The notes under the pieces: generated by a model
Seen by the model: the letters and a program-made list of their open reading frames with translations, nothing else
What the model was told of the DNA's origin: nothing
The model's database searches: none
Program-made: the position numbers and the translations under genes
Assembly (NCBI GenBank): GCA_029938465.1
Contig: JAOZUW010000011.1
Location: forward strand, 1-36,803
DNA length: 36,803 nt
DNA from: Bacteroidales bacterium
Lineage (GTDB): Bacteria; Bacteroidota; Bacteroidia; Bacteroidales; UBA12170
Direction: 5' to 3'
Part shown: positions 26,436 through 36,370 of the stretch, one piece after another
How the letters are laid out: each line of letters begins with the position of its first letter
Numbering within the stretch: position 1 is the stretch's first letter

Positions 26436-28943
26436 ATGAAAAACTTATTAAATAATTTACGAATAGTCTGGTTATTTGCTATTATGCTGACGCCATTCTT
26501 ATTAACCGCACAATCAAACCAATACCTTCATTTCGATGGAGAAGATGACTATGTTATTCTTGAAGAAGCAGGTCAATATGTTGGGGGTGAAGCTCTGACT
26601 ATAACAGGTTGGTTTTATTTAGATCAATTAGGCTATGGTCAAGGTTATATGGGTTTTCGCTCAGGTTCTGGTGATGGCGAATTCTATCTCATTCAACTTA
26701 ACAATGGCGTAATGGAATGCCGTATAGTTACCACAACAGGTCTTCATCAATTTGTGGCTCCAGCCAATACGGTAGCTCCACAAGTTTGGCAGCATATTGC
26801 TTGGGTTTATGATGGAAGTAGTATTAAATTATATGTAGGTGGAATATTAATTGGTAGTTCCTCAGCCAATGGAACTTTTTCAAACCCCACTGTTCCTTTT
26901 GGAATAGGAAAAAGTCTTTTAGGTGGATTTAACTTTGTATATGGTGGTAAAATTGATGAAGTAAGTGTATGGAATAAAGCCCTATCACAAGAGGAGATTC
27001 AAGATATGATGGAGGATGAGTTAAGCGGCGATGAAGAAAACCTTCAGCTTTATTATAAATTTAACCAAGGTGATCCAGGTGGTGATAATACTAGCATCAC
27101 GCATCTAACATGTGATGTAGGTAATGGTGAAAGAGATGGTGAACTGATGAATTTTGCATTAACCGGTGAAACATCTAATTTCAATGGAGATCTTGATCCA
27201 GGTTATCAAGCTATTTCATTTCCACAGATACCAAATCATTTAACTACTGATGCGCCATTTGAACTACAAGCTACTACCACTTCGGGGCTTGAAGTTAGCT
27301 TTGAAGTGCTTTCAGGACCTGCCAGTGTAGAAGGAAATATTTTAACTTTGGATGGCGTTGCTGGTGAAGTTGTTGTGGAAGCTACTCAGGAGGGCGATAG
27401 TCAATATGATCCCGCCGATCCCATTCAAAATATCTTTTTAGTGTTAAATCCAGATACTTTTACTCCGGTAATAGATATTCGAAATCCATTAGCGGGTGAT
27501 GTTTATGTTCCCACTTTGGCACCTATTCAAATAGCTTCCATATGTAGCATAGAATATCCCGATCTTTTTCAAGTCACAAGCGTACAGTTTTCGGTTGATG
27601 GAGAGAGTGTTGATGTAATTAAGCATTATAATACACATTATACAGGATGGTGGACTCCACCATCATACGGCAGTTATAACCTAAGTGTTACTTCTACCAA
27701 TAACTATGGAGCATCAAATACCGAAAGTGTGGAAATAGTAATAGTTGAAACTGCTACAGATATGGATGTCTCAGCTTTTGAAGGTATTTGGCTTAACCCT
27801 AGTATCCCATCTATTGTTGTAGAGGCTGAATTACCTTCATTTTTAGGTGCTTTTGATCAGATTATAGGAAATCTTGAAGTGCAGTGCCCTGATGGTGGAT
27901 GTGGTGAATGGGATAGAGTAGCCAGTATCGATGCCAAAGGACATAATGGTGTGTGGTATGAGATTATCAGATATATTACGCCCTATGGTGTTCCTTGTTC
28001 TCATGAAATAGACTTAACAGATTATGCCAGTGCCCTACAAGGTAAAATTGATTTTAGAGTAAATTGTGGAACTCTGGATAATGGATTTGAGTATTTTTTG
28101 ACTCTTGATTATAAACAAGGTACTCCGGATCATTTGTATAGTAATATCAATAAAGTATGGAACGAAACCTATCCATTTGGCGATTATGCAATGATGCAAC
28201 CTGTGGATGGCTACAGTTTTTCATTTAGAGAAGAAGCCGTTGCAGCAAAACTCAAACTGCTATCAACAGGACATGGTTGGGGCGATCTTAATACTAGTAA
28301 TGCAGCAGAATTTTATGAAGCTACACACAATATCTGGATCAATGGTGAAGAAACCTATGAGCAACATAATTGGCTGGATTGTAATCCAAATCCAGATGCT
28401 TGTCAGCCTCAAAATGGAACTTGGTATTATGATCGTGCAGGCTGGTGCCCTGGTGCCATTGCGCCTTGGTTTGATTATGATCTTACTTCTTATATTTCTA
28501 ATGAAATTATAGAAATGGACTATGTCTTTTATGAAGATTATGTGGATTATTGTCATCCTAATCACCCTGATTGTGTTACTGGTGTAACTTGTGATGATTG
28601 TGAAAGTGGATTTAATCCTCATCTCATTGTTGCCAGTAATTTAATTGTTTTTTCCGATGAACCCATAGTGACAGGAATTACACCGGAAAAACTAAATACG
28701 AAACCTATGATTCATTTGGCTCCAAATCCTACAGATGGTAAATTTGATATTACTGTTATTACAAGAAATGAATCGGTGGATGGTATTATGCACTTATATA
28801 GTATGTCTGGAGAATTGCTTGAACAAATATATATGAGTAATATCACAACGCATTGCGATTTCTCTTCCTATGCTGCAGGAGCTTATATTGTAAAGGTAGA
28901 AGCAAATAATGAAATTAAACAGTTCAAATTGATTATTCAATAA
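26436..28943 (+). CDS. LamG - Ig-like - PNGase F-like amidase with T9SS sorting domain (copy 1)
   Basis: This 835-residue secreted protein has a signal peptide at ~1-26. A LamG/ConA-like jelly roll lies at ~27-205 (GEALTITGWFYLD, WQHIAWVYDGSSIKLYVGG). Two Ig-like modules lie at ~258-440 (NHLTTDAPFELQAT, WTPPSYGSYNLSV). A PNGase F-like region lies at ~445-755: EWDR at 491-494 (D493 aligns with catalytic D60), YEIIRYITPYG, GTPD-LYS, NAAEFYEATHN (E625 aligns with E206), PQNGTWYYDRAGWCPG. The C-terminal T9SS domain is ~768-835 (LAPNPTDGKFDI). PNGase F cleaves the amide between GlcNAc and Asn of N-glycoproteins. The third important acid (E118) is not conserved, so activity is likely but unproven. 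It contains the Cys/His loop C706-H-x2-H-x2-C713-x5-C719-x2-C722. Confidence 0.85.
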   Translation: MKNLLNNLRIVWLFAIMLTPFLLTAQSNQYLHFDGEDDYVILEEAGQYVGGEALTITGWFYLDQLGYGQGYMGFRSGSGDGEFYLIQLNNGVMECRIVTTTGLHQFVAPANTVAPQVWQHIAWVYDGSSIKLYVGGILIGSSSANGTFSNPTVPFGIGKSLLGGFNFVYGGKIDEVSVWNKALSQEEIQDMMEDELSGDEENLQLYYKFNQGDPGGDNTSITHLTCDVGNGERDGELMNFALTGETSNFNGDLDPGYQAISFPQIPNHLTTDAPFELQATTTSGLEVSFEVLSGPASVEGNILTLDGVAGEVVVEATQEGDSQYDPADPIQNIFLVLNPDTFTPVIDIRNPLAGDVYVPTLAPIQIASICSIEYPDLFQVTSVQFSVDGESVDVIKHYNTHYTGWWTPPSYGSYNLSVTSTNNYGASNTESVEIVIVETATDMDVSAFEGIWLNPSIPSIVVEAELPSFLGAFDQIIGNLEVQCPDGGCGEWDRVASIDAKGHNGVWYEIIRYITPYGVPCSHEIDLTDYASALQGKIDFRVNCGTLDNGFEYFLTLDYKQGTPDHLYSNINKVWNETYPFGDYAMMQPVDGYSFSFREEAVAAKLKLLSTGHGWGDLNTSNAAEFYEATHNIWINGEETYEQHNWLDCNPNPDACQPQNGTWYYDRAGWCPGAIAPWFDYDLTSYISNEIIEMDYVFYEDYVDYCHPNHPDCVTGVTCDDCESGFNPHLIVASNLIVFSDEPIVTGITPEKLNTKPMIHLAPNPTDGKFDITVITRNESVDGIMHLYSMSGELLEQIYMSNITTHCDFSSYAAGAYIVKVEANNEIKQFKLIIQ

Positions 28944-34066: not shown

Positions 34067-34095
34067 AATAATTATCCTCCCCATAGAATAAAAAT

Positions 34096-34135
34096 CACTA
34101 AGTTCTTTATTTGAACTTAGTGGTTCTTTCGTTTA
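34096..34135 (+). terminator. Terminator of the susCD-PNGase run
   Basis: CACTAAGTTC (34096-34105) and GAACTTAGTG (34113-34122) form a perfect 10-bp stem with a 7-base loop, followed by a T-rich stretch (TTCTTTCGTTT). It lies 30 bases past the stop of copy 3 and isolates the locus from rpsA. Confidence 0.8.
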
Positions 34136-34211
34136 ACCAGCCTATAAATCTCTTATTCAAAATGCAGTTTTTTTTAATTCTGATTTTCCTGCAAATCCTT
34201 ATATTTTTCCT

Positions 34212-34241
34212 TTGTCATTAATAATATTCTGTGTACTTTTG
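34212..34241 (+). promoter_or_regulatory. Bacteroidota-type promoter of rpsA
   Basis: TTG (34212-34214, within TTTG), exactly 19 bases, then TACTTTTG (34234-34241): a full match to the -33/-7 consensus. Transcription should start at about 34245-34248. Confidence 0.8.
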
Positions 34242-34243
34242 CA

Positions 34244-34308
34244 GCCCCGTTTCAAAATGTGCAATTAATTGATTATTAACCTGGTTTGATATTTTGTGTA
34301 AATGGGGC
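34244..34308 (+). promoter_or_regulatory. Structured 5' leader of rpsA mRNA
   Basis: GCCCCGTTT (34244-34252) can pair with AAATGGGGC (34300-34308), and directly inside, CAAAAT (34253-34258) with ATTTTG (34291-34296), leaving a 3-base TGT bulge: 15 pairs including one G-T. A small TTAAT/ATTAA hairpin fits inside. The stem begins nearly at the predicted transcript 5' end and stops about 70 bases before the rpsA ATG. No T-run follows, so it is not a terminator. S1 represses its own mRNA in E. coli, so an autoregulatory leader is plausible; this is inference. Confidence 0.55.
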
Positions 34309-34378
34309 AAAATATAAGCCGCAAATTATTGTCTACAACTGTAAAAAAACAGGGAAAAGGCATAAGAAGTTCAAAATA

Positions 34379-36370
34379 ATGAGCGAAGAAATTAAAAAAG
34401 CTGAAGAGCAAGCTGCTGATGCAGTAAAACAAGAAGAAAAAACTGAGGTAGTAGAAACTCCTAAAGCTGAAGCAAAAGTGGAAGAAGTAGAAGCTCCTAA
34501 AGCTGAAGTAAAAGTGGAAGAAGTAGAAGCTCCAAAAGTAGAAGAGAAAGTAACTGAAAAAGAAGCTCCAAAAGCAGAAAAAAAAGTTGCTGAGAAAAAA
34601 GAAGAAAAAGCTGAAGAAGTTCCATTTGATTGGGATGCTTTTGGTAAAAAGCAAGAGGTTTATTCTGCTGACGAGCGTACTCAGCTCGAGGACATGTACA
34701 GCCAAACATTAAAAACCATTAATGAGAACGAAGTAATTGAAGGTATAATAGTATCTATTAGTACTCGTGAAATAGTGGTTAATATTGGCTACAAATCTGA
34801 TGGTTTAATCCCTTCATCTGAAGTGAGATATAATCCTGATTTGAAAATTGGTGATAAAATTGAGGTTTATGTAGAAAACCAAGAAGACCTTAAAGGTCAG
34901 TTACAGTTATCTCATAAAAAAGCTAGAATCTTACAAAGTTGGGATCGTGTGAATAAAGCCCATGATAACGACGAAATTATTACAGGTTTTGTGAAAAGCC
35001 GTACAAAAGGTGGATTAATTGTTGATGTATTTGGTATCGATTCATTCTTACCAGGTTCTCAAATTGATGTGAAGCCTATCCGTGACTATGACATCTATGT
35101 TGGAAAGAATATGGAATTCAAAGTGGTTAAAATCAACCATGAATTCAAAAATGTTGTAGTATCTCACAAAGCACTTATCGAAGATGAATTAGAAGCTCAA
35201 AAAGCTGAAATCATTGCTAAACTAGAAAAAGGTCAAGTATTAGAAGGTACTGTTAAGAATATTACTTCTTATGGTGTATTTATCGATCTTGGTGGTGTTG
35301 ACGGTTTGGTTCATATCACAGACTTAAGCTGGGGACGTATTTCTCACCCAGAAGAGATTGTGAAATTAGATGAGAAAATCAATGTGGTAATCTTAGATTT
35401 TGATGAGAATAAAAAACGTATTGCTTTAGGTTTAAAACAATTAACTCCTCATCCTTGGGATTCTTTAAGTACTGAACTTAAAGTTAATGATCAAGTAAAA
35501 GGTAAAGTGGTTGTAATAGCTGATTATGGTGCGTTTATTGAAATTCAACCAGGTGTTGAAGGTTTGATTCACGTTTCTGAAATGAGCTGGTCTCAGCACT
35601 TAAGAACTGCACACGACTTTGTAAAAGTAGGTGATGAAGTTGACGCTGTTATTTTAACTCTAGATCGTGAAGAGCGCAAAATGTCTCTTGGAATGAAACA
35701 ATTAATTCCAGATCCATGGGCTGATATTGCAACTAAATATCCTGTGAAATCTAAGCATAAAGCTACCGTTAGAAACTTTACTAACTTCGGTATTTTTGTT
35801 GAATTAGAAGAAGGTGTTGATGGTTTAATTCATATTTCTGACCTTTCTTGGTCTAAGAAAATCAAACATCCAGCTGAATTTACAAAAATTGGTGAAGAGT
35901 TAGAAGTATTGGTTCTTGAAGTAGACGAAGAAAATCGTAGATTATCATTAGGTCATAAGCAGTTAGAAGAAAATCCTTGGGATGTATTTGAGACCGTTTT
36001 CTCTGTAAATTCAACTCATAAAGGAACTATCCTATCTGTAAATGAAAAAGGTGCTATTGTTTCTTTACCTTATGGTGTTGAAGGATTTGCTCCTAACCGT
36101 CATTTGAAGAAAGAAGATAATTCTAAAGTTGCTGTTGATGATTCAATGGAGTTTGTAGTGATTGAATTCTCTAAAGATAGTAAGAAAATTATTCTTTCTC
36201 ACGTGAATACTTGGAGAGCTCCAGAAGATAAACCAGCTGCAAAACGTAGTGGTGGATCTCATACTAAGCAAGCTGTTAGGCGACATAACGAATCAAACGA
36301 GGGTACTACTCTTGGTGATATCGCAAATAGCGAATTAGCTAAACTAAAGTCTCAATTGGAAGGAAAATAG
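34379..36370 (+). CDS. rpsA: 30S ribosomal protein S1
   Basis: This protein of 663 residues starts at MSEEIKKAEEQ; the upstream open frame (from 34286) runs through the leader and is not coding. Residues ~1-85 are an acidic/Lys-rich tail with four 12-residue repeats, ending at VPFDWDAFGKKQEVY. Six S1 (OB-fold) domains follow, starting at about residues 117, 203, 290, 375, 460 and 545 (GIIVSISTREIVVNIG, GTVKNITSYGVFIDLGG, ATVRNFTNFGIFVELEE and others). The Ser-rich/basic end includes AAKRSGGSHTKQAVRRH. S1 binds mRNA on the 30S subunit and is needed for initiation on mRNAs without strong SD sites, the normal case in Bacteroidota. A promoter, a folded leader and a terminator flank it. Confidence 0.95.
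   Translation: MSEEIKKAEEQAADAVKQEEKTEVVETPKAEAKVEEVEAPKAEVKVEEVEAPKVEEKVTEKEAPKAEKKVAEKKEEKAEEVPFDWDAFGKKQEVYSADERTQLEDMYSQTLKTINENEVIEGIIVSISTREIVVNIGYKSDGLIPSSEVRYNPDLKIGDKIEVYVENQEDLKGQLQLSHKKARILQSWDRVNKAHDNDEIITGFVKSRTKGGLIVDVFGIDSFLPGSQIDVKPIRDYDIYVGKNMEFKVVKINHEFKNVVVSHKALIEDELEAQKAEIIAKLEKGQVLEGTVKNITSYGVFIDLGGVDGLVHITDLSWGRISHPEEIVKLDEKINVVILDFDENKKRIALGLKQLTPHPWDSLSTELKVNDQVKGKVVVIADYGAFIEIQPGVEGLIHVSEMSWSQHLRTAHDFVKVGDEVDAVILTLDREERKMSLGMKQLIPDPWADIATKYPVKSKHKATVRNFTNFGIFVELEEGVDGLIHISDLSWSKKIKHPAEFTKIGEELEVLVLEVDEENRRLSLGHKQLEENPWDVFETVFSVNSTHKGTILSVNEKGAIVSLPYGVEGFAPNRHLKKEDNSKVAVDDSMEFVVIEFSKDSKKIILSHVNTWRAPEDKPAAKRSGGSHTKQAVRRHNESNEGTTLGDIANSELAKLKSQLEGK
34457..34600 (+). repeat. 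Four 36-bp in-frame tandem repeats in rpsA
   Basis: Units start at 34457, 34493, 34529 and 34565 and encode TPKAEAKVEEVE, APKAEVKVEEVE, APKVEEKVTEKE and APKAEKKVAEKK. Units 1 and 2 are almost identical in DNA (two base differences); 3 and 4 have diverged. They lie in the disordered N-terminal tail, so copy number can vary without breaking the frame. Confidence 0.85.

Follow-up and report, generated by a model that had tools for sequence, protein, structure and literature searches.

The window, the whole stretch of 36,803 nucleotides of Bacteroidales DNA that was analysed, carries the gene for the 30S ribosomal protein S1, rpsA, behind an AT-rich gap. Upstream, between 26436 and 34066, lie three neighbouring genes for proteins of about 840 aa (at 26436, 28954 and 31517), all three encoding a C-terminal sorting domain for type IX secretion. 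A hairpin with T runs on both strands (34093-34125) separates the secreted-protein gene upstream from the promoter of rpsA and is likely a bidirectional terminator. S1 itself begins with an N-terminal extension (34379-34620) spanning some 80 residues; K, E, A, P and V are frequent in it, near-repeats (VEEVEAPKAE) occur, and it is missing or divergent in many relatives, whose matches begin near residue 83. The features discussed below are the following.

34211 to 34214, plus strand: -33 promoter element TTTG (sequence; consensus TTTG/TANNTTTG according to the available text of PMC6847099)
34234 to 34241, plus strand: -7 promoter element TACTTTTG (sequence and pattern match; 19-nt spacer to -33)
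34246 to 34247, plus strand: predicted transcript start (from the 4-5 nt spacing in PMC6847099)
34244 to 34252, plus strand: 5' strand of outer helix P1a, GCCCCGUUU, the putative pseudoknot stem (a helix of 9 uninterrupted pairs with the P2 loop, p 0.013 against shuffles; covariation within the genus)
34253 to 34258, plus strand: 5' strand of the inner helix, a possible alternative fold in the window species only (pairing, without covariation)
34273 to 34281, plus strand: conserved single-stranded block UUAUUAACC directly 5' of P2 (column counts in 86 curated leaders; alignments)
34283 to 34296, plus strand: 5' arm of hairpin P2, GGUUUGAUAUUUUG, with G34288 bulged (pairing; P2 covariation in relatives)
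34291 to 34296, plus strand: 3' strand of the inner helix, the same bases as the top of P2 (pairing, without covariation)
34300 to 34308, plus strand: 3' strand of P1a, AAAUGGGGC, inside the P2 loop (pairing, covariation within the genus, contiguous-helix test)
34308 to 34320, plus strand: 3' arm of P2, CAAAAUAUAAGCC, with C34308 shared with P1a (pairing; P2 covariation in relatives)
34321 to 34378, plus strand: 58-nt spacer between P2 and the start codon; the median over 86 leaders is 17 nt (leader counts)
34379 to 36370, plus strand: rpsA, 30S ribosomal protein S1, 663 aa (NCBIfam NF004953, 898 bits vs a cut-off of 720)

The promoter named in a preliminary description of this DNA can be read directly from the sequence in all its parts: the -33 element TTTG, the -7 element TACTTTTG and the 19-nt spacing. 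In Flavobacterium johnsoniae 4-5 nt separate the -7 box from the transcript start (PMC6847099), and the same spacing puts the predicted start here at 34246-34247, so that six or seven of the nine outer pairs would be transcribed. The same description had placed a long stem near the transcript start and about 70 unpaired bases between this stem and the ATG. Its 15 pairs can form, nine in the outer and six in the inner helix, with a 3-nt bulge (34297-34299) and 32 nt enclosed. The position holds in part, as P1a begins within 3 nt of the predicted start, but two or three of the nine outer pairs fall outside the predicted RNA. Some of the downstream bases, in turn, are paired: with 34308, the stretch 34309-34320 makes up the 3' arm of P2, a conserved hairpin that had been overlooked. 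In the window it comprises 12 pairs in the alignment plus G34296-C34308 and one bulged G. P2 takes up bases of the inner helix, and the 3' strand of the outer helix lies within the P2 loop; P2 and the outer helix are therefore compatible with each other solely in a pseudoknot, in which C34308 is contested. A transcription attenuator was rejected, as the sequence after P2 is A-rich and lacks a U run; no terminator-like site was found in the rpsA leader, the two at 34093-34125 lying upstream of the promoter.

Which of these helices are kept by evolution? Compensatory changes, which the preliminary description had proposed to look for, are indeed found in rpsA leaders of Bacteroidia relatives. 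In a genus-level set of eight leaders (the window, L084-L089 and L067), P1a together with P2 scores 0.221 vs 0.163 for shuffled alignments (3/500 as high), and the inner helix 0.024 vs 0.019 (223/500 as high). Of the proposed stem, the outer nine pairs are maintained by compensatory change in relatives while the inner six are not, and a plain long 5' stem was rejected because its inner helix is not conserved. By eye, four of the eight rows have the outer helix shifted by one position (CCCAAUU or CCCGAUU with RAUUGGG). All eight leaders have in common CAnCCC at the start, UUNUUAAC mid-leader and a second possible hairpin. Standard folding of 34244-34400 gives a z-score of -2.47, with 2 of 200 shuffles folding as well, and is dominated by the 15-pair stem; the leader alone (34242-34378) folds at a z of just -1.4. 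Ordinary folding favours the nested hairpin, with -18.7 kcal/mol for the P1 hairpin by itself and -11.2 kcal/mol for P2 by itself, and this counts against the pseudoknot reading.

For a broader comparison 190 S1 loci were used: 80 from named genomes, 29 from related genomes, 80 fetched by place, and the window, with some genomes present as the same record twice. Leaders were parsed at 176 of them, 173 automatically and three by hand, and six others were reset by hand. They fall into two types, 110 long (106 distinct) and 66 short (63 distinct); as the short label was set by a motif pattern, invariance within that pattern is partly circular. A curated P2 is present in 86 long leaders (84 distinct; P2 bounds hand-set in 14, and 12 leaders removed by hand before this count) and lacking in 24. 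A crude P2 finder, which misassigned several leaders, had been replaced.

P2 shows strong covariation, which amounts to 0.687 vs 0.248 shuffled in a first alignment of 16 sequences (A1) and to 0.784 vs 0.239 in an alignment of 24 Bacteroidia rpsA leaders (A4), which was built from matches to a model of A1 and is hence biased towards the structure. In both cases 0/500 shuffles scored as high and slid controls stayed below the true score (at most 0.232 in A4). The hairpin is placed between a conserved UNUUAACC and (U)ACAA: in the 86 curated leaders it begins a few nucleotides past UNAAC, ends directly 5' of ACA in 40 and of UAC in 29, and its 3' end precedes the AUG by a median of 17 nt (10th-90th percentile 14-29). 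The window itself is atypical, as its P2 ends 58 nt before the AUG and is followed by GCAAA rather than ACA, a geometry that counts against reading it as an S1 operator. The arrangement extends to other orders, for which 29 loci were taken from the best S1 matches in a class sample. By eye, UNAAC, P2 and UACAA are recognizable in ten of these (L213, L218, L219, L221-L226, L228), and five more have P2 with a different 3' flank (L203, L204, L208-L210).

The pairing of upstream bases with the P2 loop was tested too. A loose duplex test was uninformative, since long upstream segments pair with anything, and contiguous-helix tests were used instead. Among 40 non-redundant representatives (<0.70 similarity; dinucleotide shuffles of both strands), 11 leaders including the window have a contiguous helix at p<=0.05 where two are expected; controls gave 3/40 for a reversed loop and 9/40 for swapped upstream regions. 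In the window the pairing has p 0.013, yet its own reversed-loop control is equally low (p 0.010), so that the window by itself is weak evidence and the argument depends on the whole set. The 40-leader test did not detect the pairing in several leaders with a clear P2 (L006, L063, L112, L117, L127). An earlier test on 57 leaders with a P2 of at least 24 nt had found 21 with a contiguous helix at p<=0.05 vs loop shuffles, and 19 at rank <=0.05 in a swap test; as relatives are counted repeatedly there, the 40-representative version is preferred.

Two modes of pairing can be distinguished. One group pairs by its 5'-terminal strand, CCCCCGAUU or CCCCGAUU with AAUCGGGG-type strands (L005, L017, L018, L093). 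In another, the pairing strand lies downstream of the first bases and, by eye, within a 5' hairpin, which would give a loop-loop contact; its pairs are GCCCGG/CCGGGC, GUCCGA/UCGGAC and GCCCGA/UCGGGU (L007, L022, L009, L004), and L012 of the same group pairs AUCCGG/CCGGAU out of register. For these five leaders, a clade separate from the genus-level set, 24/500 shuffles score as high. Comparison of the leaders indicates that the 5' end of rpsA mRNA and the P2 loop form a pseudoknot.

The first bases are also distinctive in their composition. In the window (34242-34252) and its relatives rpsA transcripts appear to begin in CAnCCCnTTT, and among 197 distinct leaders C occupies positions 4-6 after the -7 box in 73%, 77% and 64%, figures for which the choice of promoter slightly favoured CC. 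The C-rich start is kept in 34 of the 63 distinct short leaders, which have no pairing partner, and the rpsO promoter of the window's own genome also has CAGCCC (L242, seen among 30 own-genome promoter matches). A control for the C-rich start was too small: it had 13 promoters, and these included some unparsed rpsA leaders. It is possible that a pyrimidine-rich start is common to ribosomal-protein mRNAs.

In one Bacteroidales clade the fold is substituted by a linear element, AUAAUGUCUAACNNAUUAA. The 66 short leaders carry AUAAUGUCUAACNNAUUAAUU or near variants in its place, and the 63 distinct ones are unstructured (mean z +0.27). The exact pattern ATAATGTCTAACNNATTAA occurs once each in 32 of 196 genomes, compared with a single match for the reversed pattern, and it always stands directly upstream of rpsA (25 by position and seven by tblastn). 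In a tree of S1 with 109 rows, a quick tree with long branches for L075 and L077, all 28 short-labelled leaders fall into one clade of 30 rows with 100% support, and the remaining two (L053 and L056) are motif variants by eye. Since the fold type is found across the other Bacteroidales rows as well as the Flavobacteriia and Sphingobacteriia rows, the fold is probably older than the linear form and was lost once. A GUNUAAC-like block is common to both. Six leaders of another order (L200-L202, L205, L220, L227) have a UGUUUAAC- or UUAAAC-type sequence past a 5' hairpin, with AAUUAUUGAC or similar soon after; they resemble the linear element although they lie outside its clade, and may possibly represent an independent reduction.

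How specific is the leader to rpsA? The covariance models R1 and R2 did not recover the window's leader when its own genome was searched. R2, of low sensitivity, matched in 15 of 196 genomes, at rpsA in 11 and elsewhere in four; eight of the 11 are seed sequences and one more is a copy of a seed. Two look-alikes of UUAACC-hairpin-ACAAA stand immediately before start codons in other genomes, one at a symporter-like gene (L231, 1498-1536, plus strand) and one at a secreted-protein-like gene (L233, 1541-1578, minus strand), both probably by chance. Known RNA families offer no match: Rfam 15 had none in the window, with just a 14-bit PreQ1 hit in the leader region vs a cut-off of 39, and only two weak matches far under the cut-off in 14 relative loci. 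A riboswitch or another Rfam family was rejected, as nothing reached the gathering cut-off. Neither was an rpsA leader in Bacteroidota found in the literature searched, in which subscription papers and supplements were mostly beyond reach.

Taken together, conservation, position in the leader and the gene specificity of the linear form support the idea of a Bacteroidota rpsA leader that the preliminary description had put forward. A conserved leader RNA does exist in Bacteroidia genomes, but its architecture is a pseudoknot with UUAACC and (U)ACAA blocks rather than a long stem. It has two hallmarks of a ribosomal-protein leader, namely a covarying conserved structure upstream of rpsA (P2 with the pseudoknot) and an association with rpsA alone, which is complete for the linear form (32/32); the model of the fold form was a weak one (11/15 matches at rpsA, mostly seeds). 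As to its reader, the targets of bS1 include AU-rich sites and pseudoknots, and in gammaproteobacteria it represses rpsA by competition, according to the available text of PMC10931766. Gene specificity and this published preference point to S1, and by comparison alone the leader has the topology expected of an S1-binding pseudoknot, next to single-stranded A/U-rich RNA. We therefore lean towards a cis-acting element that is read by bS1 itself, and that probably lets S1 control its own production.

Such control might proceed as follows. From the comparison of leaders, the first transcribed bases pair with the P2 loop, leaving UUAACC 5' of P2 and, in most relatives, (U)ACAA 3' of it as unpaired flanks; pseudoknot and A/U-rich flanks would then constitute a high-affinity S1 site. 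Bacteroidia ribosomes initiate without Shine-Dalgarno pairing, and a role in choosing start sites has been proposed for S1 instead (PMC3155529, PMC6847099). S1 bound to the 30S subunit could dock rpsA mRNA at the pseudoknot, near the start codon, whereas S1 in excess of ribosomes would fill the site in its free form and block initiation. Domain 4 of bS1 is placed near mRNA positions -12 to -15, a region that is A-enriched in F. johnsoniae (PMC6847099); ACAAA in the median leader falls close to this position, from which the 58-nt spacing of the window departs. In one Bacteroidales clade the fold has been swapped for a linear element, which would play the same part. In the window species the nested hairpin of outer and inner helix may compete with P2, so that a two-state switch is conceivable, although it is without comparative support. 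The boldest form of this reading holds that Bacteroidia have a dedicated operator for S1 in the first part of the rpsA transcript, at its 5' end. It would have begun as a kissing or tail-loop pseudoknot and been replaced once by a linear element of 17 specified bases, confined to rpsA and present a single time in each genome that has it; we would put the chances of this form at a little under even.

Other readings explain part of these observations. The leader might be a translational enhancer or standby site, where pseudoknot and A-rich flank recruit the 30S subunit via bound S1 with no repression by free S1. This would agree with the usual position of P2 about 17 nt before the AUG, followed by ACAAA-type sequence in the A-enriched domain 4 region (PMC6847099), and has a precedent in tisB (PMC7708055). 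We nevertheless regard it as unlikely, as an enhancer of general use should also stand before further strongly expressed genes, and the linear form is present once per genome in 32/196, at rpsA only. Alternatively, a structure at the very first bases could protect the transcript from decay that depends on the 5' end. P1a begins no more than 3 nt from the predicted start, and many leaders have other 5'-proximal hairpins by eye; stabilization leaves unexplained why UUAACC, P2 and the ACAA flank are conserved far from the 5' end, and why 63 distinct short leaders are unstructured, which makes it quite improbable.

Another RNA-binding protein, an sRNA or a ligand might read the leader in place of S1 and match S1 to growth, a possibility to which we give a similarly low probability. 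The strict sequence of the linear element would be unusual for a target of S1, which is described as having no strict sequence preference (PMC10931766), and this counts against S1; on the other side stand the lack of an Rfam family match and the restriction to the S1 gene, which makes S1 the simplest ligand. That the leader is nothing but a plain nested 5' stem, or chance structure in an AT-rich gap, is very hard to believe: the nested stem is the predicted minimum-energy fold, but covariation is found in P2 and P1a and not in its inner helix.

Should the operator reading be correct, S1, usually deemed to have little sequence preference, would possess a genuine recognition site specific in sequence and structure. 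In bacteria whose initiation does without Shine-Dalgarno pairing, the operator would signal how much S1 there is relative to ribosomes; the literature searched holds no description of how the S1 dose is kept in step with ribosomes in Bacteroidia. A short conserved RNA confined to the S1 gene also provides a defined substrate for testing what S1 recognizes, and fold versus linear motif presents a natural experiment in which one lineage exchanged tertiary structure for sequence.

S1 is not known as a primary rRNA binder, whereas S15 is one, and the uS15/rpsO operators differ from the rpsA leader in ligand, fold and gene. What they share is a pseudoknot as the operator in a ribosomal-protein mRNA (PMC10931766). 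Within the phylum, r-leaders are known for L13, S4, S15 and S16 in Bacteroidia and Flavobacteria, with no S1 among those in the available text of PMC7247131, a paper on 20 r-leaders; these too are conserved RNAs directly upstream of ribosomal-protein genes, but for other proteins and with other folds. The tisB mRNA likewise has a pseudoknot at its 5' end beside single-stranded RNA, which is required for S1 and 30S binding (PMC7708055). Its gene and sequence are unrelated, its stems differ in size and order, and the rpsA element lies close to the AUG in most relatives. Closest in function is the rpsA leader of E. coli and other gammaproteobacteria, with the same gene, a structured 5'UTR and AU-rich single strands, for which competition between free and 30S-bound S1 has been proposed (PMC10931766), as we infer here. 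Compared solely with its description in PMC4679880, the three hairpins of the E. coli leader are not seen in Bacteroidia, where a pseudoknot of 5' end and P2 loop with UUAACC and (U)ACAA flanks, or the linear element, takes their place. Judged by that description the gammaproteobacterial leader appears unrelated, and the Bacteroidia rpsA leader is apparently a new family of ribosomal-protein leaders.
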